A DNA stretch of 64,000 bases, from positions 4,278,001-4,342,000 of the forward strand of contig NZ_CP034660.1 of assembly GCF_003971255.1 (NCBI RefSeq). The letters are read 5' to 3'. The notes under the pieces were generated by a model. The model saw nothing but the letters and a program-made list of their open reading frames with translations. It searched no databases and was not told where the DNA came from. Positions 2,235 through 59,190 of this stretch are shown piece by piece; the first letter of the stretch is position 1, and each line of letters begins with the position of its first letter. The stretch is from Colwellia sp. Arc7-635. Its GTDB lineage: Bacteria > Pseudomonadota > Gammaproteobacteria > Enterobacterales > Alteromonadaceae. The position numbers were made by a program, and so were the translations under genes.

Positions 2235-3179
2235 ATGTCTCCGCTATCCGTTTTACAGTCAATTAACCATCCTATTTTTACCCAACATAAAATATCGGTT
2301 CAGATCAAACGTGATGATCAAATAGATAGCATCATTTCTGGTAATAAATGGCGCAAGCTTAAATACAACTTAAGACATGCAAAAGCTACGGGTGCTAAAG
2401 GTATTATTACTTTTGGCGGTTGTTTTTCGAATCATATTCACGCTTGTGCGTTTGCCTGCCAGCAGCAGGGGTTATCTGTTCTCGGTATTATTCGTGGAGA
2501 AGAGCAAAATCAAAATAATTATACACTAGCTTGGGCGAAATATTGGGGGATGAAGCTCTCTTTTGTTGACCGAAAAACTTATCGTATGCGCGATGATGAA
2601 AGTTATTTACAACAGTTACAGCAACAATACCCCGATCATCTGATTATTCCAGAAGGCGGCAGTAATACGCTTGCTTTAACAGGGATGGCTGAAGTTATTG
2701 ATGAATTAAATCAACAAGGGCAATTTGATACGCTATTAACGCCCGTAGGCAGTGGCGGAACCTTTGCGGGCTTGATATTAGGTGATAATAATCAACATAA
2801 CTTACTGGGTATTTCAGTATTAAAACAAGAGGATTATCTAGTAAAAAAAGTCAATGACTTGCTGCCTGAGCACGCTAAAGCCCATACTAACTGGCAGATT
2901 ATGAATCAGTTTCATTGTGGCGGCTACGCAAAATTTAGCCCGAACGACGCCGAAAGAATACGTAGCTTTAGTCAAGCCGTTGGCATTAACTTTGAGCCTG
3001 TTTATTCAGGAAAAATGTTGCTAGCGCTACTAGATTTAATCACAGCGGGATATTTTCCTGCTGAACATCGTATTGTCATGCTACACACTGGCGGATTACA
3101 AGGTTTAGCGGGTATGTATCAGCGAGGTATACTTAACCCAGCTGAATGGCCTTCGCTACCTGTGCCACCGGCTCAGTGA
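2235..3179 (+). CDS. PLP-dependent D-cysteine desulfhydrase / ACC deaminase family protein
   Basis: A 314-residue fold-type II PLP enzyme of the 1-aminocyclopropane-1-carboxylate deaminase/D-cysteine desulfhydrase family. The probable PLP lysine is K38 in SGNKWRKL. GGCFSNH (about residues 61-67) lines the substrate site and GSGGTFAGL is the phosphate-binding loop. In gammaproteobacteria such enzymes usually remove sulfide from D-cysteine; deaminase activity on ACC cannot be excluded. The gene sits divergently between mshI and csrD, which are adjacent in many relatives. Its last 47 bases overlap the 3' end of csrD tail to tail. The start ATG at 2235 has only a weak ribosome-binding site. Confidence 0.82.
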   Translation: MSPLSVLQSINHPIFTQHKISVQIKRDDQIDSIISGNKWRKLKYNLRHAKATGAKGIITFGGCFSNHIHACAFACQQQGLSVLGIIRGEEQNQNNYTLAWAKYWGMKLSFVDRKTYRMRDDESYLQQLQQQYPDHLIIPEGGSNTLALTGMAEVIDELNQQGQFDTLLTPVGSGGTFAGLILGDNNQHNLLGISVLKQEDYLVKKVNDLLPEHAKAHTNWQIMNQFHCGGYAKFSPNDAERIRSFSQAVGINFEPVYSGKMLLALLDLITAGYFPAEHRIVMLHTGGLQGLAGMYQRGILNPAEWPSLPVPPAQ

Positions 3180-4983
3180 AAAAATGACCTTGTCCACCTT
3201 TAAGGCCAAGCTGAACTAAAAGGCGCCACTCACTTTGTTTTTCAACCCCGAGCGCATAAATAGCAATATTTTTTGGAGCGGCTAAGGTTTTCAAGCTTTG
3301 AATGAAAACTTGGTTTTCAGTTTTTTTATCAATATCGATGACAATACTGCTATGCAATTTCATCGCATATATTGGATAAACATTAAGATAGTGAGCACTA
3401 ACCACATATTGTCCGACTTTATCTGCGACAATTCTGATACCGGCCGCGCTTAAACTAGCGATAACAGGCTGTAACTCTTTCAGATGATTAACTAATTGAT
3501 ATTCGCTCACTTCCATCATTAATCGACCCGCAACTCCAGGAAACTTATTCACTATCGCTAAAAACTGCTCGCCAAAGCCATTTGATAATAGTGAATCGAT
3601 TGCTACATTGATACTGCAATCATCTTGTAATTTTTTCTCCTGGGCTAGCACTCGACACACTTGCTCTAGGATCAGCAAATCCATTTTAACAGTCAAGCCA
3701 CATTTTTTAGCCATAGGTAAAAAAACTCTAGCGCTGATCAGGTTACCCTTTTTATCACGAACTTTTGACAATACTTCATGATGTAGAACCTTGGTATTAT
3801 CACAAGCAATAATCGGTTGGAAGAAAATAACAAAACCGTTATTTGCTATTGCCGAACTGAGCAATGTACGCCACTTTAACGACCCCTGTGCTTTCACCTC
3901 TTCTAACTCACCCGCTTCAAACATAAACCACTGAGAAGGCCCTTGTAGCTGCGCTGAGCGCAATGCCATATCAGCTTCTGACATGATCTGATACGGAGCT
4001 TGCTCATGGCTAAAATAGCTAATACCGATATGAATAAATTCATCGCTATTAATTCCAATGGGAGTTACCACCGCTTGTAAGTTTTTCAATAAGCGATCGG
4101 AAAACTTCTTAACCTCTGGTATATAAACACCCGGCAATAACACCGATAATTCATAATCACTATGACGAGCAAGAAAATAGCTTGGGTGGTCTTCTAGCCT
4201 TTGCTTTGTCACTTGGATAAGCGTTGATAAAAGTGACATAGCTTGCTGGTAGCCATATAAACTTTGTACGACTTCAATTTCTTTAAACTGAATTAGCAGT
4301 ACCGCACCTTGTGCATCTTCTCCTTTTATAAAAGCTTGTAAACGATTATCGAAAAAAGCACGGTTGCCAATATGTGTCTCTTGATCAAGTAGAGCGCTAG
4401 CTCGAATACTTTGATCTGAGGAAATATCGCTAGCAACGTTTTCATGAATACGTTGTTGAAGTTGATGGATAGCTAAAATAATGGCATCAGTTTCAGTCGA
4501 TATATTATCCATAGGAACAGCTTGAGTAGTGCCGTGAATCAGCGATAGATTGGCCCAACTTTCTAGTTTTTGCCATGATTTAAGCAAAGCATTAAGCTGC
4601 CGCTGCATATATTCACGTAATGCCAATGCGGTGAGTAAAAGCATAAAGGTAAAAACCAAAAATAATGGTGAAGTAAGCACAAGATAAAGTGGCTGTGAAA
4701 AGTTTAAAGACCAGCGACTGTTCGTAATGATTAACTGTCTTGAGTATTCTTCATCAGCAGTATCTAAGCGAACCAAATGCCCGCTTGAAAGCGTCGGCAC
4801 CTTGGCATAATTTTCCAGTTGCTGGTCATTAAAGTTAAAGGCCTCTATGGCATGATGTTGATTATTTTGTACTTGATAAACAGCCAAAGTAGAAAACGTA
4901 CAAACTAGAAAATAAAACAACAAAAACGTCATAAGTAATACTTTGGTTTTGGTTTGTTGTATCGGTTTAATCTTTGACAGCAT
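3133..4983 (-). CDS. csrD: CsrD/MshH-type degenerate GGDEF-EAL protein
   Basis: CsrD (MshH) targets CsrB-type small RNAs for RNase E decay in the Csr system and does not turn over cyclic-di-GMP. The protein has two membrane helices (about residues 15-37 and 105-125), a HAMP-like linker, a GGDEF domain whose signature is reduced to RHSDYE, and an EAL domain whose motif reads HEVLSK. Both degenerations match CsrD. I choose the ATG at 4983, giving 616 residues, because GGA lies 6 bases upstream. An upstream GTG at 5007 would add eight residues. The position next to msh genes supports the name. Its 3' end overlaps the convergent PLP-enzyme gene by 47 bases. Confidence 0.85.
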   Translation of the reverse strand: MLSKIKPIQQTKTKVLLMTFLLFYFLVCTFSTLAVYQVQNNQHHAIEAFNFNDQQLENYAKVPTLSSGHLVRLDTADEEYSRQLIITNSRWSLNFSQPLYLVLTSPLFLVFTFMLLLTALALREYMQRQLNALLKSWQKLESWANLSLIHGTTQAVPMDNISTETDAIILAIHQLQQRIHENVASDISSDQSIRASALLDQETHIGNRAFFDNRLQAFIKGEDAQGAVLLIQFKEIEVVQSLYGYQQAMSLLSTLIQVTKQRLEDHPSYFLARHSDYELSVLLPGVYIPEVKKFSDRLLKNLQAVVTPIGINSDEFIHIGISYFSHEQAPYQIMSEADMALRSAQLQGPSQWFMFEAGELEEVKAQGSLKWRTLLSSAIANNGFVIFFQPIIACDNTKVLHHEVLSKVRDKKGNLISARVFLPMAKKCGLTVKMDLLILEQVCRVLAQEKKLQDDCSINVAIDSLLSNGFGEQFLAIVNKFPGVAGRLMMEVSEYQLVNHLKELQPVIASLSAAGIRIVADKVGQYVVSAHYLNVYPIYAMKLHSSIVIDIDKKTENQVFIQSLKTLAAPKNIAIYALGVEKQSEWRLLVQLGLKGGQGHFFTEPVAQVAKAIQLG

Positions 4984-54629: not shown

Positions 54630-55778
54630 TTATAAAATACTGAACTTACTAAATACTTTATAAAGCTCAGTGCCTTGATTAACACTGGCCGACGCAAAGT
54701 GTAGTATCGGAATAACTTGATGATCTAAGCTAATATAGTGCAAGGGATCGCCATCACCATAATTATCCATACGAAGAATACGAGCTAAAGGCTCTCCAGG
54801 TGCTAACGGCTGACCAAATTCGGCTAAGTAATCGACCATACCACCCATTGGTGAATATAACGCTTTGTAATCTTCGAGCATACAGCAGTACCGCGTCATC
54901 TTTTTCGGATGATAATCATCACTATTTATCACGCCTTGATACTGTAGATAACTCAATATTCCTAGTGCATCCTCATGAGCGATATCAAGATCAATTTGCT
55001 CTTGTGAGCCGAGCTCAACAGTAAAACTTTCCTTAATAATTAACGCCTCACCCTGCTTCTCATCTGCTTTAGTGATTGGAAAATCACGCCCTAAATCAGC
55101 AAAGGCTTGCTTTAACTGCCACCAAGGACAAAATGTTGCTTCATCTAATGCGCCATCAAAACTATTCGGGATCAACAAGGTATGTGGGATATCAAAGTAC
55201 TTTGCACTTGCTTTTGCATATTCAGGACAATATAAATGCTTACTAGAAATAGGACCTGTGTGCAGATCTAAAACAATATCAGCTTGGTGCGCTAAGTGCT
55301 GCAGTTGAAAAGCAATACGCTGTCCGGTAGTTAATCCATAAACATTATGATTAAGCTTTTGGCTTATTTTTTCTAGCATTAAAGCTCTGAATGCCTGCTC
55401 AATTTCGATGTTGCTCTGGTTTAAGTTTGCTTGAGCAAAAGGCGCCACCATCTCTGTATCAAAATGATACATACGGTTCCAATTCACGCCTGTTATCGGA
55501 TCAAATCGGCCTAAGGTGTACTCGCCATTTTTATGATTACAAGCAACAGGATTGGCATACGGCACAAGCGTAATACTGCCTTTCAATTCAATGGTTTTTA
55601 ATAACTCTAACAACTGAAAAATAACCGCATTGCCTTGAACTTCCGCGCCATGCATATTAGCTTGAATATAAACGCTAGGCCCTTGTTGCTGTCCTTCAAG
55701 ACGGTAAACGGGCACAGTAAGCGCAGCACCACTCGCCATTTCTCCAACATGCATCACTTCTTTACTGACTATATTCAT
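54630..55778 (-). CDS. M14-family deacylase, succinylglutamate desuccinylase/aspartoacylase type
   Basis: A 382-residue zinc hydrolase of the AstE/AspA branch. The metal and catalytic residues are visible: NMHGAEVQG (His and Glu), DLHTGP (second His) and FTVELGS (catalytic Glu). A C-terminal beta-domain (about 300-375) contains GGMVDYLAEFGQPLAPGEPLA, similar to biotinyl-like domains common in this branch. It should cleave an N-acyl amino acid. AAGG precedes the ATG by 6 bases. It lies on the same strand as the dapA/dapD/lysA-like operon, separated from it by a 314-bp repeat. A role as desuccinylase for that pathway is a hypothesis. Confidence 0.85.
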   Translation of the reverse strand: MNIVSKEVMHVGEMASGAALTVPVYRLEGQQQGPSVYIQANMHGAEVQGNAVIFQLLELLKTIELKGSITLVPYANPVACNHKNGEYTLGRFDPITGVNWNRMYHFDTEMVAPFAQANLNQSNIEIEQAFRALMLEKISQKLNHNVYGLTTGQRIAFQLQHLAHQADIVLDLHTGPISSKHLYCPEYAKASAKYFDIPHTLLIPNSFDGALDEATFCPWWQLKQAFADLGRDFPITKADEKQGEALIIKESFTVELGSQEQIDLDIAHEDALGILSYLQYQGVINSDDYHPKKMTRYCCMLEDYKALYSPMGGMVDYLAEFGQPLAPGEPLARILRMDNYGDGDPLHYISLDHQVIPILHFASASVNQGTELYKVFSKFSIL

Positions 55779-55826: not shown

Positions 55827-56140
55827 TATACCCGCTCCACTTCAAAATACAGATTTCAGCAAGTCGATAACGGGTTAGCACCAAGGCATTGATTGAAGAA
55901 AATAGTTATTCTATTATCGAAATCAATAACGCCGGAGATGACCCGTTATCGGCTTGCCCGAGGGAGCTATGCTAGAAAGTCAGTCCTGCGTTGCATACAT
56001 GGATGTATGTACTTAGCTTTTGTCTGGAGCAAAAAAGCTGTGCAATACTTGATAAGGGAGTGACCATTACCTGCGTATCGCGCCTTGATCTGAATTCCTA
56101 GCTTAGCTCTGAAACTGCATCTTGAAGTGGAACGGGTATA
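55827..56140. repeat. 314-bp element with terminal inverted repeats (MITE-like)
   Basis: The ends TATACCCGCTCCACTTCAA (from 55827) and the complement of the right end, TATACCCGTTCCACTTCAA (ending 56140), match over about 30 bases with few mismatches. Inside, CGATAACGGGT pairs with ACCCGTTATCG at 55862-55952 to form a long hairpin, and CATACATGGATGTATG is another. There is no coding capacity. It looks like a non-autonomous mobile or ERIC-like repeat; copy number in the genome is unknown. Confidence 0.75.
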
Positions 56141-56168: not shown

Positions 56169-57431
56169 TTAGCGCAAATACCATGAGGCAGGCTCTGCTA
56201 CGCGCACTTGTTCAATTTTTCCTTGCTGTAATACATATTCAGCGGCTACTTGATGACACAAGAAAAAAGGCATACTTTCAGTAAAGCCATAGGCGCCAGC
56301 TAAACCAAATATTAATTGATCATCAACATCAACATCATCGGCGATTGCCATGCGACCTAATTTATCTAAGCTGGTACAAAGAGGACCGTGTAAATCGAAA
56401 TCTCGAGTATTCGCCACTGACTCTCTGAGCATAGCAACAGGAAAGGGCTGTTCGGTTATTGCTGGACGTAACAGATGATTAATACCACCGGCGAGTACTA
56501 GCTGTTGTTGTTGAAAATTTTCTTTACGATCAACCACTGACGTGACGTAATAACCCATTTCAGCAACAGCAAAACGCCCTAACTCTAACCATAATTCACT
56601 GACACCGGCCTGAGCTTTTATTTGCGCCAAATCTGTAATGACTTGCTGCCAACTTAAACCTTTTCCTGCCTGCAGATAATCAACCCCGAGCCCGCCACCT
56701 AAATCTAATACCTCTAGCGGCATGCCTAATTGCTCAGCTAACGATACCAGTGGCGCGACCATTTGCGACCAAAGCTCATACATGCGTACATTGCTGAGCA
56801 TATTTCCCCACTGGAAAATATGTAAGCCATTGATATTTAATGCAGGAAAGTCAGATACTTTTATCGATTGCCACTCTTGGCAAGATAAACCAAAAGCCGT
56901 GACTTCATTACCACCTAATGGATTTTTTTCACCTTCTGCCCATTGCAACTGCACCCTCAACAACACTTGCGGTCGGCATGACAGTTCGCTCGCCGCTTGT
57001 TCAAGCCATTGCAATTGATTTAAGCTTTCAACAACAAAGGTGCGCACACCTTGTGTTAAAAAAGCTTTCATCTGCCGTTTTGACTTTGCCGGCCCAGTAT
57101 TGAGAATACGATCTGCCTGAACATCTTGCGCTAAAACTTGGGTTAACTCACCTTGACTAGCAACATCGAAATTAAAGCCTTGCTGCGCCAATGTTTCCAA
57201 CACGCGTGACAAAGGGTTTGCCTTAACCGCAAACCAAAGTTTAATAACGTCTTGCTGCATTAGCTGTGATAAGTGCTGTTCAAGATAATCTAGGTCATAA
57301 AGAAAAAAGCCTGCGTCATCTTCCCGTATTTCATCACGATGCTTCAGTGCTTCACTGTGCTCGCTCAACGACTCAAGTACCGCAGGTCTTAGCCAATTTG
57401 GCCTAGCAGGATAATTTAACATGGCAGTCAT
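56169..57431 (-). CDS. LysA-like PLP-dependent decarboxylase (fold type III)
   Basis: A 420-residue alanine-racemase-fold decarboxylase. The PLP lysine is K70 in LWFAVKANP, the glycine loop is DLGGGLGVDY and the inter-subunit cysteine is C352. That last motif reads GPLCTSLDKLG. Classical diaminopimelate decarboxylase has CESGD there, and HIGSQ where this protein has HIFQWGN. It is closer to the BtrK or exosortase-associated decarboxylases than to housekeeping LysA. AGGAG lies 5 bases before the ATG and overlaps the dapD-like stop. Last gene of the riboswitch-controlled operon. The substrate is uncertain: meso-diaminopimelate or an acylated analogue. Confidence 0.8.
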   Translation of the reverse strand: MTAMLNYPARPNWLRPAVLESLSEHSEALKHRDEIREDDAGFFLYDLDYLEQHLSQLMQQDVIKLWFAVKANPLSRVLETLAQQGFNFDVASQGELTQVLAQDVQADRILNTGPAKSKRQMKAFLTQGVRTFVVESLNQLQWLEQAASELSCRPQVLLRVQLQWAEGEKNPLGGNEVTAFGLSCQEWQSIKVSDFPALNINGLHIFQWGNMLSNVRMYELWSQMVAPLVSLAEQLGMPLEVLDLGGGLGVDYLQAGKGLSWQQVITDLAQIKAQAGVSELWLELGRFAVAEMGYYVTSVVDRKENFQQQQLVLAGGINHLLRPAITEQPFPVAMLRESVANTRDFDLHGPLCTSLDKLGRMAIADDVDVDDQLIFGLAGAYGFTESMPFFLCHQVAAEYVLQQGKIEQVRVAEPASWYLR

Positions 57432-57439
57432 TTTTGCTC

Positions 57440-58189
57440 CTAACGCAAGACAGATTCAAGTTCTAACGCGGCATTGCTTTTCTCATCACGATACTTAACA
57501 ATCAGGGCACATGCCATATTTAAACCATGCTGCTGCGCCCAAGCCCCGGTAACTGGTCGTGTACCTGGAACTACAACAGCATTTTCAGGAATATCTGCAC
57601 CCTTTTCTAACATGACATTGTTAACACAATCATAAACCGGCACCGACGCCGACAAAGAAACCCCCGGCGCTAACACCGCACCTTTCTTCACGACAATACC
57701 TTCTACAATAATCACGCCAGCACTTAAAAAAGCATTATCTTCAATAATCACTGGGCTCGCACCAATAGGCTCAAGCACCCCACCGATTTGTACCGCGGCA
57801 GAAACATGGACATTTTTACCTATTTGCGCGCATGAACCAATTAAGGCATGGCTATCAACCATAGTGCCACTATCCACGAAAGCACCGACATTGATATAAG
57901 CCGGTGGCATGATAATGACACCAGGTGCGACATAAGCGCCACGACGAACTGATGAACCGCCCGGTACCATTCTGACTTTATCTTCAACCGTAAACTCACG
58001 TGCAGGTAAATTATGCTTATCAACAAAACCACTATAAATACCGTCAAATACGATATTTTCGCCCGCTTTAAAAGCCGCTAAAATATCTTGCTTTACTGCT
58101 GTATTTACCTGCCATGTGCCATCGTTATTTTGCACTGCTGCACGAATTTTACCTGCTTCTAAATCTGTTAATGTTTGCTGCCAAGTCAT
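57440..58189 (-). CDS. DapD-like tetrahydrodipicolinate N-succinyltransferase homologue
   Basis: A 249-residue left-handed beta-helix acyltransferase. It aligns with DapD without gaps across YINVGAFVDSGTMVD, GSCAQIGKNVH and IGGVLEP. The catalytic aspartate equivalent (D112) is kept. In the segment where DapD has GARSEIVEG it reads SAGVIIVEG, so the glutamate thought to act in catalysis is I160. The N-terminus is about 25 residues shorter than E. coli DapD. Its ATG overlaps the dapA-like TGA by 4 bases. Acyl transfer to a tetrahydrodipicolinate-like acceptor is likely, but the reaction may differ from DapD. Confidence 0.8.
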   Translation of the reverse strand: MTWQQTLTDLEAGKIRAAVQNNDGTWQVNTAVKQDILAAFKAGENIVFDGIYSGFVDKHNLPAREFTVEDKVRMVPGGSSVRRGAYVAPGVIIMPPAYINVGAFVDSGTMVDSHALIGSCAQIGKNVHVSAAVQIGGVLEPIGASPVIIEDNAFLSAGVIIVEGIVVKKGAVLAPGVSLSASVPVYDCVNNVMLEKGADIPENAVVVPGTRPVTGAWAQQHGLNMACALIVKYRDEKSNAALELESVLR

Positions 58190-59190
58190 AAGTTTACTTC
58201 TCGTTTGTTAGTTACTGCTGAATGAGGGTGTGCTGCGACATTTGAAGTGTCATCTGTAGTCGGGATTTGCGCTGACAGGTTATGACTCTCTAGCCATTGC
58301 TGAATTTGTTGGTTAATCTCTTGCAAGCCATGCTGCGTGGTTATCTCTTCTTGGCACAGTGGCAAGCGTAGAGTTGCAGAGCTAATTGTTTTAAGTTCTG
58401 CCATTAAAATCTTTGGTGCTATTGGACTGGTCACTTGGAATAAAGCGGCTATCGCGTTATGCCAAAGAGGAAATAAACCTTCATGCTGATTTGATAAAGC
58501 TAATGCAACATACTGACATGTAGCTTCAGGCCAAACATTGGCACATACAGAGATTAACCCTTTCACACCAGCGCCAGCAAGATAAGGCATCATGGCGTCT
58601 TCACCACTATAAACCTCAACATTAGGGCAATGTTGACGGTAAGCTAATAGCTTATGGATATCACCACTGGCTTCTTTTAACGCCCAACAATTTTTATGAT
58701 TTTGCACCTGTTGCAAGGCCGAAATAGCAATTTCAACGCCGGTACGAGAAGGGACGTTATAAAGCATGCAAGGAAAATCAGCGGCATCAAGTAAACGTGT
58801 AAACCAAGCAGCTTGACCAACGGGACCTGGCTTCGCATAAATAGGACATGTTAACAGGTAGGCATGAATAGGTAAGGTATTGCACTTGGCTATCCAAGCA
58901 ACTTGCTCTTTAAGATTATAGCCACCAACAGCAACCATTAAGGGCACCTGCAAAGATATTGCACATACGTACTCAACAATGCTTAAATGTTCACTGGCGG
59001 TTAAGGCTAAGCCTTCGCCCGTACTACCTAATAATAAAATGCCATTGTTAGCAGCGTTTTGCTGTAAAACTAAGTTGCGTAAACTGGTGTAGTCAATTTC
59101 GCCATCATCGAATAATGGCGTGATCAGTGCAGTCCAAACCAATGGTCGGTCTGTGCAGGGATAATTTTTTGATAATATTTTTTGACTCAT
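58186..59190 (-). CDS. dapA: DapA-like 4-hydroxy-tetrahydrodipicolinate synthase
   Basis: DapA condenses pyruvate with aspartate semialdehyde, the first lysine-branch step. The Schiff-base lysine K172 (LKEASGD), Y144 in YNVPSRTG, and STGEG are conserved, so it should be active. The C-terminus has an extra polar tail of about 40 residues. I start it at the ATG at 59190 (334 residues), preceded by GAGAG. A TTG at 59241 keeps the frame open but lies inside the leader. First gene of the operon; a lysine riboswitch lies just upstream, which strongly ties the operon to lysine. Confidence 0.88.
   Translation of the reverse strand: MSQKILSKNYPCTDRPLVWTALITPLFDDGEIDYTSLRNLVLQQNAANNGILLLGSTGEGLALTASEHLSIVEYVCAISLQVPLMVAVGGYNLKEQVAWIAKCNTLPIHAYLLTCPIYAKPGPVGQAAWFTRLLDAADFPCMLYNVPSRTGVEIAISALQQVQNHKNCWALKEASGDIHKLLAYRQHCPNVEVYSGEDAMMPYLAGAGVKGLISVCANVWPEATCQYVALALSNQHEGLFPLWHNAIAALFQVTSPIAPKILMAELKTISSATLRLPLCQEEITTQHGLQEINQQIQQWLESHNLSAQIPTTDDTSNVAAHPHSAVTNKREVNL

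Follow-up and report, generated by a model that had tools for sequence, protein, structure and literature searches.

The window analysed here is a stretch of 64,000 nucleotides from Colwellia sp. Arc7-635 (contig NZ_CP034660.1, positions 4,278,001 to 4,342,000 of the forward strand; the genome is a single contig of 4.74 Mb). Its minus strand carries, between positions 54630 and 59475, a lysine riboswitch followed by genes for a DapA-like synthase (dapA2), a DapD-like acyltransferase (dapD2), a LysA-like decarboxylase (dcb2) and an AstE/aspartoacylase-like deacylase, in that order. We propose, with a probability of about 0.58, that this set encodes a lysine-repressed parallel route to lysine in which an N-acylated diaminopimelate (N-acyl-DAP) would be decarboxylated before it is deacylated. 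The DNA itself shows the genes and how they are ordered, together with the riboswitch, the substitutions that are conserved and a separate canonical set; from these we infer all of the chemistry. DapD2 would transfer an acyl group to tetrahydrodipicolinate (THDP) to give N-acyl-2-amino-6-oxopimelate, which an aminotransferase from outside the window's set would convert to N-acyl-LL-DAP. Dcb2 would then act as an N-acyl-LL-DAP decarboxylase that takes the carboxyl group off the end with the free amine, the acyl group still blocking the other amine, and the AstE-like enzyme would strip the acyl group from the resulting N2-acyl-L-lysine to release lysine. DapE, DapF, meso-DAP and LysA would all be bypassed. 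Decarboxylation before deacylation appears to be the simplest account because it accommodates both the residue evidence and the occurrence of lysine-controlled genes without dapE, dapF or lysA among them. A sequence-only reading of the same DNA had suggested that an intermediate or the product is modified and that lysine is the product or feedback signal, an idea whose core fits these findings, but it had missed the deacylase that would end the pathway.

The riboswitch aptamer (RF00168; 59271–59475, minus strand, as are all genes of the set) lies upstream of the gene set and scores 90.1 bits in cmscan against a gathering score of 30. The dapA2 gene (58186–59190) encodes a DapA-like 4-hydroxy-tetrahydrodipicolinate synthase (TIGR00674, 239 bits; cut-off 206.15); the start at 59190 belongs to the ATG form, and a longer TTG form in the list of open reading frames reaches 59241. 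The dapD2 gene (57440–58189) encodes a short DapD-like THDP N-acyltransferase (NF008808, 296 bits; cut-off 204) in which an acetyl-type motif, AG[VCA][IV], replaces ARSE, and dcb2 (56169–57431) encodes a LysA-like fold-III pyridoxal 5'-phosphate decarboxylase (PF02784, 126.2 bits) with the site residues Thr353, Arg286 and Arg322. The gene for the AstE/aspartoacylase-like zinc deacylase occupies 54630–55778 (PF24827, 101.8 bits; cut-off 25). The sequence-only reading had placed the first three genes and the motifs SAGVIIVEG, HIFQWGN and GPLCTSLDKLG correctly; its restriction of the set to dapA-, dapD- and lysA-like genes does not hold, as the deacylase gene belongs to the set in 99 of 100 comparison rows.

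These 100 rows comprise the window, 18 fetched relatives, 80 matches from named genomes (the best 80 of 162 confirmed) and one further locus (L185); 12 of them (L062–L071, L112 and L120) are repeat copies of genomes already counted, leaving 88 distinct loci. Among 40 searched genomes (the window's own and 39 relatives), dapD2 with an adjacent dcb2 was found in 19: the genome itself, 16 others from its genus and one each from its family and its order, and the deacylase gene is present in the window and in all 18 fetched relatives that carry the pair. The best 80 of the 162 named-genome matches fall in Colwellia, Cognaticolwellia, Litorilituus, Thalassotalea, Thalassomonas and Pseudoalteromonas, with a few unnamed gammaproteobacteria, and the gene order is retained across genera. 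The genes dapD2 and dcb2 are neighbours in every row, the deacylase gene lies 3' of dcb2 on the same strand in all rows except L113, which stops at a contig edge, and dapA2 precedes dapD2 in 77. The riboswitch was sought in 14 of the 23 rows without dapA2 and lies immediately upstream of dapD2 in 11. In total, a lysine riboswitch was found at 41 of 44 distinct dcb2 loci scanned (window 1/1, relatives 18/18, further batches 10/10 and 9/11, L185 0/1 and the 2-Mb genus described below 3/3) and was not found at L100, L107 and L185. One genome (G038) has the order riboswitch–lysC–dapA2–dapD2–dcb2–deacylase, and the second lysine riboswitch of the window genome heads the gene for a lysine-sensitive aspartokinase. 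Residue counts over 99 rows of Dcb2 or DapD2 leave out the one damaged copy of the gene concerned, each from a single genome: a dcb2 of 316 residues (L048, 6513–7463) and a dapD2 split into two frames (L086, 5242–5992).

The position of the Glu in the CESGD motif of LysA is Thr in all 99 full-length Dcb2 rows and Glu in 20 of 20 canonical LysA sequences, and HxFQWGN is present in 100 of 100 rows. Since these changes hold across the rows, HIFQWGN, GPLCTSLDKLG and the SAGVIIVEG of DapD2 are not sequencing slips. The catalytic Lys, Cys, Asp and Tyr are invariant (99/99), as are Arg286 and Arg322, the equivalents of the distal-carboxylate arginines of LysA, with the same 36-residue spacing as in LysA. 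The equivalent of Arg322 is found in 20 of 20 Dcb2 and 14 of 14 LysA sequences and is absent from SbnH, BtrK and three TIGR03099-type rows; at the corresponding position (Arg285 in LysA), SbnH has Leu, immediately preceded by an Arg, and BtrK has Ala. In Thermotoga maritima LysA, Arg249 and Arg285 hold the distal carboxylate and Glu315 the distal amine; the E315T mutant loses most of its activity on DAP and favours 2-aminopimelate, a compound that lacks the distal amine (PMC8277567). Dcb2 has Arg, Arg and Thr at these three positions.

Dcb2 falls below the cut-offs of TIGR01048 (LysA; 194.9 versus 297.9 bits), TIGR03099 (192.1 versus 478.45) and FslC (48.3 versus 500), and its PDB sequence matches are, best first, SbnH and then LysA and BtrK. 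The loop that replaces CESGD reads CTPKD in SbnH, CTPED in BtrK, CTPLD in the three TIGR03099-type rows and CT[SA].D in Dcb2. Two trees join Dcb2 with SbnH, BtrK and the TIGR03099-type proteins (support 99/97 and 97/97), outside LysA in both. The altered motif reported by the sequence-only reading is real, with Thr replacing Glu, but this probably does not make Dcb2 a LysA altered at one site; it probably sits beside the SbnH/BtrK-type decarboxylases of acylated substrates, with a LysA sister position still allowed in an approximately unbiased (AU) test (p = 0.26). Two further decarboxylases with HIF.GSQ and GPLCTPLD motifs (L190, 1435–2658, and L191, 1155–2393; 'TIGR03099-type' is here a label given by motif, not by scan) each lie beside a gene that reads as an acyl-coenzyme A ligase.

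DapD2 differs from canonical DapD in a consistent manner. It passes NF008808 and is below the cut-offs of TIGR00965 (192.1 versus 375.4 bits) and of the DapH model TIGR03532 (83.5 versus 231.75 bits). The ARSE motif, which all 20 canonical DapD sequences have, is missing from every one of 99 DapD2 rows; DapD2 reads AG, then Val, Cys or Ala, then Ile or Val, such that both the Arg and the Glu of GARSE are lost in all 99 rows and the Glu position is Ile or Val throughout. The sequence-only reading took this as replacement of the presumed catalytic Glu. The loss stands, but no Glu is universal here: the solved acetyl-type THDP transferases 3cj8 and 3r8y read GANAVVLEG and GANVVVLEG at this site, with Val at the Glu position. 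In Pseudomonas aeruginosa DapD, a Glu contacts the substrate amine and acetyl-coenzyme A is not accepted (PMC3281039). The match to acetyl-type enzymes suggests that the substitution reflects use of a different acyl group, perhaps acetyl, and not an inactive enzyme; acetyl is more likely than succinyl. A dead DapD2 was considered and is unlikely, since its motif resembles that of DapH and four genomes have no other NF008808 match. DapA2 of the window retains the active-site Lys, Tyr and Arg (Lys pattern in 76 and Tyr-Arg pattern in 73 of 77 rows); the claim that it keeps all catalytic residues is too broad, as all 77 rows have Ser in place of the first Thr of GTTGE.

The deacylase carries H..E, NR, H and E motif patterns, each present in 96 to 99 of the 99 rows, which we take to have the roles they have in AstE/aspartoacylase deacylases; one of these rows (L091, 7250–7576) is a gene reduced to a 108-residue frame. 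Its PDB relatives 3lwu and 3fmc are named just as (putative) succinylglutamate desuccinylase/aspartoacylase. In a survey of 197 genomes of the order (deacylase E up to 1e-30, dcb2 E up to 1e-60), the deacylase was found in 33, dcb2 in 14 and both in 13; the single dcb2 genome without the deacylase is 80% complete, and its dcb2 match is partial.

The gene set is accompanied by canonical lysine enzymes. The window genome holds canonical lysA (547.7 bits), dapD (370.9 bits) and dapE (563.7 bits), and the set is therefore a parallel one; the second lysA and dapD that the sequence-only reading proposed to look for are both present, and simple divergent housekeeping copies were rejected on this ground. 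All 19 dapD2–dcb2 genomes among the 40 also encode another PF02784 protein, of canonical LysA type (at least 239 bits), and 18 have a canonical DapD (the miss is a 66%-complete assembly). Within the order, canonical DapE exceeds its cut-off in 13 of 14 dcb2 genomes.

Another arrangement is seen in a 2-Mb genus, three genomes of which (G665, G527 and G769; 99–100% complete) have a lysine riboswitch at the head of lysC–dapB–dapA–dapD2–dcb2 (lysC, dapA and the asd-like gene mentioned below were recognized by reading; the dapB of G665 scores 81.9 bits, under the model cut-off of 122). A class I aminotransferase gene has its own lysine riboswitch in G769, directly follows dcb2 in G527 and lies upstream with an asd-like gene in G665; the enzyme exceeds the cut-off of no specific model among the 25 shown. 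No dapE, dapF or lysA was read in the riboswitch-headed stretches of these three genomes; each of them also encodes a deacylase homolog elsewhere, outside the operon, and a LysA that has the Glu. In a related arrangement, G323 (92% complete, 5% contamination) has dapB–dapD2–dcb2–deacylase, with dapB at 106.7 versus 122 bits, and its LysA likewise has the Glu. Lysine-controlled genes of such lineages account for much of the way from aspartate to a decarboxylated product. No canonical dapE over the cut-off was found in any of the four genomes. DapD2 is the sole NF008808 match in all four (E up to 1e-20; the search of the 2-Mb genus covered this DapD type and not other DapD types, DapL or Ddh), so it is probably functional. 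In G769 a second AstE-like paralog, 31% identical to the first, overlaps the dapF frame (DapF, 204.1 bits; L241, dapF at 2603–3388 and the paralog at 1489–2631) and, in a genome without a canonical dapE match, is a candidate DapE substitute.

Several observations weigh against the proposed route. At the survey thresholds (1e-30 and 1e-60) the deacylase occurs without dcb2 in 20 of its 33 genomes, for which reason we rejected it as a strict partner of dcb2. At L198 and L199, in genomes without dcb2, a lysine riboswitch, a lysC-like gene and the deacylase stand together; in G043 the deacylase gene is by itself next to an rsmC-like gene, at a site that carries the full set in other genomes; and a deacylase paralog overlaps dapF, as noted above. 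A deacylase of N-acyl-DAP would fit these occurrences at least as well. Because it occurs without dcb2, the enzyme appears to have work of its own, most simply on N-acyl-DAP, and it probably acts on this compound besides the proposed N-acyl-lysine; where no canonical dapE was found (G665, G527, G769 and G323), it probably makes LL-DAP. As to Dcb2, the first Arg (Arg286) is present in every family member aligned and hence has little discriminating value, leaving Arg322 as the only discriminating one; the AU test leaves a single clade of Dcb2 and LysA standing; and the top Foldseek rank is a LysA, with VIA-align tying SbnH with LysA. The engineered E315T LysA remains D-specific (PMC8277567), whereas N-acyl-LL-DAP would present an L centre. 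Lastly, a canonical-type LysA is kept in all 23 dcb2 genomes with a readable lysA check (the 19 above, G665, G527, G769 and G323), so that none of them needs the bypass. A search for a near-complete genome that has the gene set but no canonical lysA turned up none: a lysA match over the cut-off is missing from 8 of 295 genomes, and of two that were rescanned, G148 (78% complete) has dcb2 alone and G201 (71%) has two decarboxylases reading as ornithine-decarboxylase-like and arginine-decarboxylase-like, with no dcb2. Two family members (G178 and G284, 99% complete) have only a weak lysA match (E about 1e-30) and may be lysine auxotrophs or contain assembly gaps.

Part of this pattern would be expected of an ordinary isozyme set, with DapD2 and the AstE-like enzyme as lysine-repressed forms of DapD and DapE and with Dcb2 decarboxylating free LL-DAP or meso-DAP. 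The deacylase beside lysC under a lysine riboswitch without dcb2, the paralog overlapping dapF, the failure to find dapE where DapD2 is the only DapD found, the discriminating distal-carboxylate Arg kept in Dcb2 and the LysA sister position allowed by the AU test all speak for such a set. We nevertheless regard it as unlikely, since the amine-binding Glu is lost in 99 of 99 rows, a change that cripples DAP use in T. maritima LysA, and since dcb2 would need no deacylase if DapE already gave DAP, as it could in all but one of the 14 dcb2 genomes within the order, although not in the three of the 2-Mb genus. The dependence of dcb2 on the deacylase is one-way, and neither dapE nor dapF was read in the riboswitch sets. 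It is more doubtful still that the set makes another compound, for example N-acyl-lysine or a lysine-like metabolite, with lysine as a signal only. The tabtoxin genes offer a precedent, in that the LysA-like TabA failed to complement an Escherichia coli lysA mutant and TabB is named a DapD in a review (PMC3927611). Yet no tailoring, peptide-forming or export genes were read adjoining the set within the window, lysC, dapB or dapA belong to the set in other lineages and the deacylase ends the line in most loci. At one related locus (L058) two genes reading as ATP-binding-cassette ATPases lie beyond the riboswitch on the opposite strand. Degenerate copies under relaxed selection are very improbable: dcb2, dapD2 and the deacylase are each broken in a single row (L048, L086 and L091), but the catalytic Lys, Cys, Asp and Tyr and both Arg residues of Dcb2 are invariant in 99 of 99 rows and the gene order is kept over genera.

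If decarboxylation does precede deacylation, lysine could raise or shut its own supply with cell-wall DAP untouched, and the presence in these bacteria of two THDP acyltransferases and two LysA-like enzymes would be explained. In the bacterial DAP variants known to us, the cell-wall precursor meso-DAP is also the last lysine precursor. We lean slightly towards the wider view that the set represents a further variant of the DAP route without free DAP, in which lysine and cell wall are separately controlled and the AstE-like enzyme replaces DapE where dapE is missing, probably also supplying LL-DAP to the cell wall there. DapD-, LysA- and succinylglutamate desuccinylase-like enzymes in many marine genomes would then be reassigned, new enzyme activities would be predicted and genomes without a found dapE would gain a DapE substitute.

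In the window itself the deacylase gene appears detached because an insert resembling a miniature inverted-repeat transposable element (55827–56140, unstranded) sits ahead of it, between dcb2 and the deacylase gene and outside the pathway. The insert is 314 bp long with 29-nt terminal inverted repeats that are 86% complementary; a 76%-identical copy is present in L047 and partial copies in L059 and L106. The dcb2–deacylase gap has a median of 16 bp over 99 rows, and the 390 bp of the window is the maximum.

The gene set can be compared with several known systems. The succinylase and acetylase variants of the DAP pathway (DapD/DapH, ArgD/PatA, DapE/N-acetyl-DAP deacetylase, DapF and LysA) share the same entry through DapA, DapB and THDP acylation, and likewise protect the intermediate with an acyl group. 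In these variants deacylation comes first and decarboxylation follows, by way of free LL- and meso-DAP. As read, the riboswitch sets differ in having neither dapE nor dapF and a decarboxylase without the amine-binding Glu, and in that a deacylase of another family mostly follows dcb2. No recognizable description of N-acyl-DAP decarboxylation to lysine was found in the open-licence literature, as judged from listings rather than full texts. A 2017 survey, in the portion accessible, gives a riboswitch operon dapA–dapD–lysA–hypothetical–hypothetical in Pseudoalteromonas and a riboswitch-controlled dapD in Colwellia psychrerythraea (PMC5584792), very probably the same loci as the present set. There they are ordinary lysine genes with two hypothetical proteins, described as occurring in one genus only and with no other route proposed in that portion, and the word desuccinylase is absent from its main text; here the set extends over many genera. 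SbnH and BtrK share with Dcb2 the CT..D loop and the tree placement; unlike the Dcb2 set, they and FigC/FslC are siderophore or antibiotic enzymes. We know of no lysine regulation of SbnH, FigC/FslC or BtrK. SbnH is named an N-citryl-diaminopropionate decarboxylase, and FigC, an N-citrylornithine decarboxylase, decarboxylates an acylated precursor instead of the free one and so circumvents putrescine (PMC7857480). In tabtoxin formation, LysA-like (tabA) and THDP-pathway (tabB) genes appear likewise to have been recruited together (PMC3927611). Tabtoxin differs in being a toxin pathway with many extra genes, and to our knowledge no lysine riboswitch is associated with those genes, whereas one heads the set described here.

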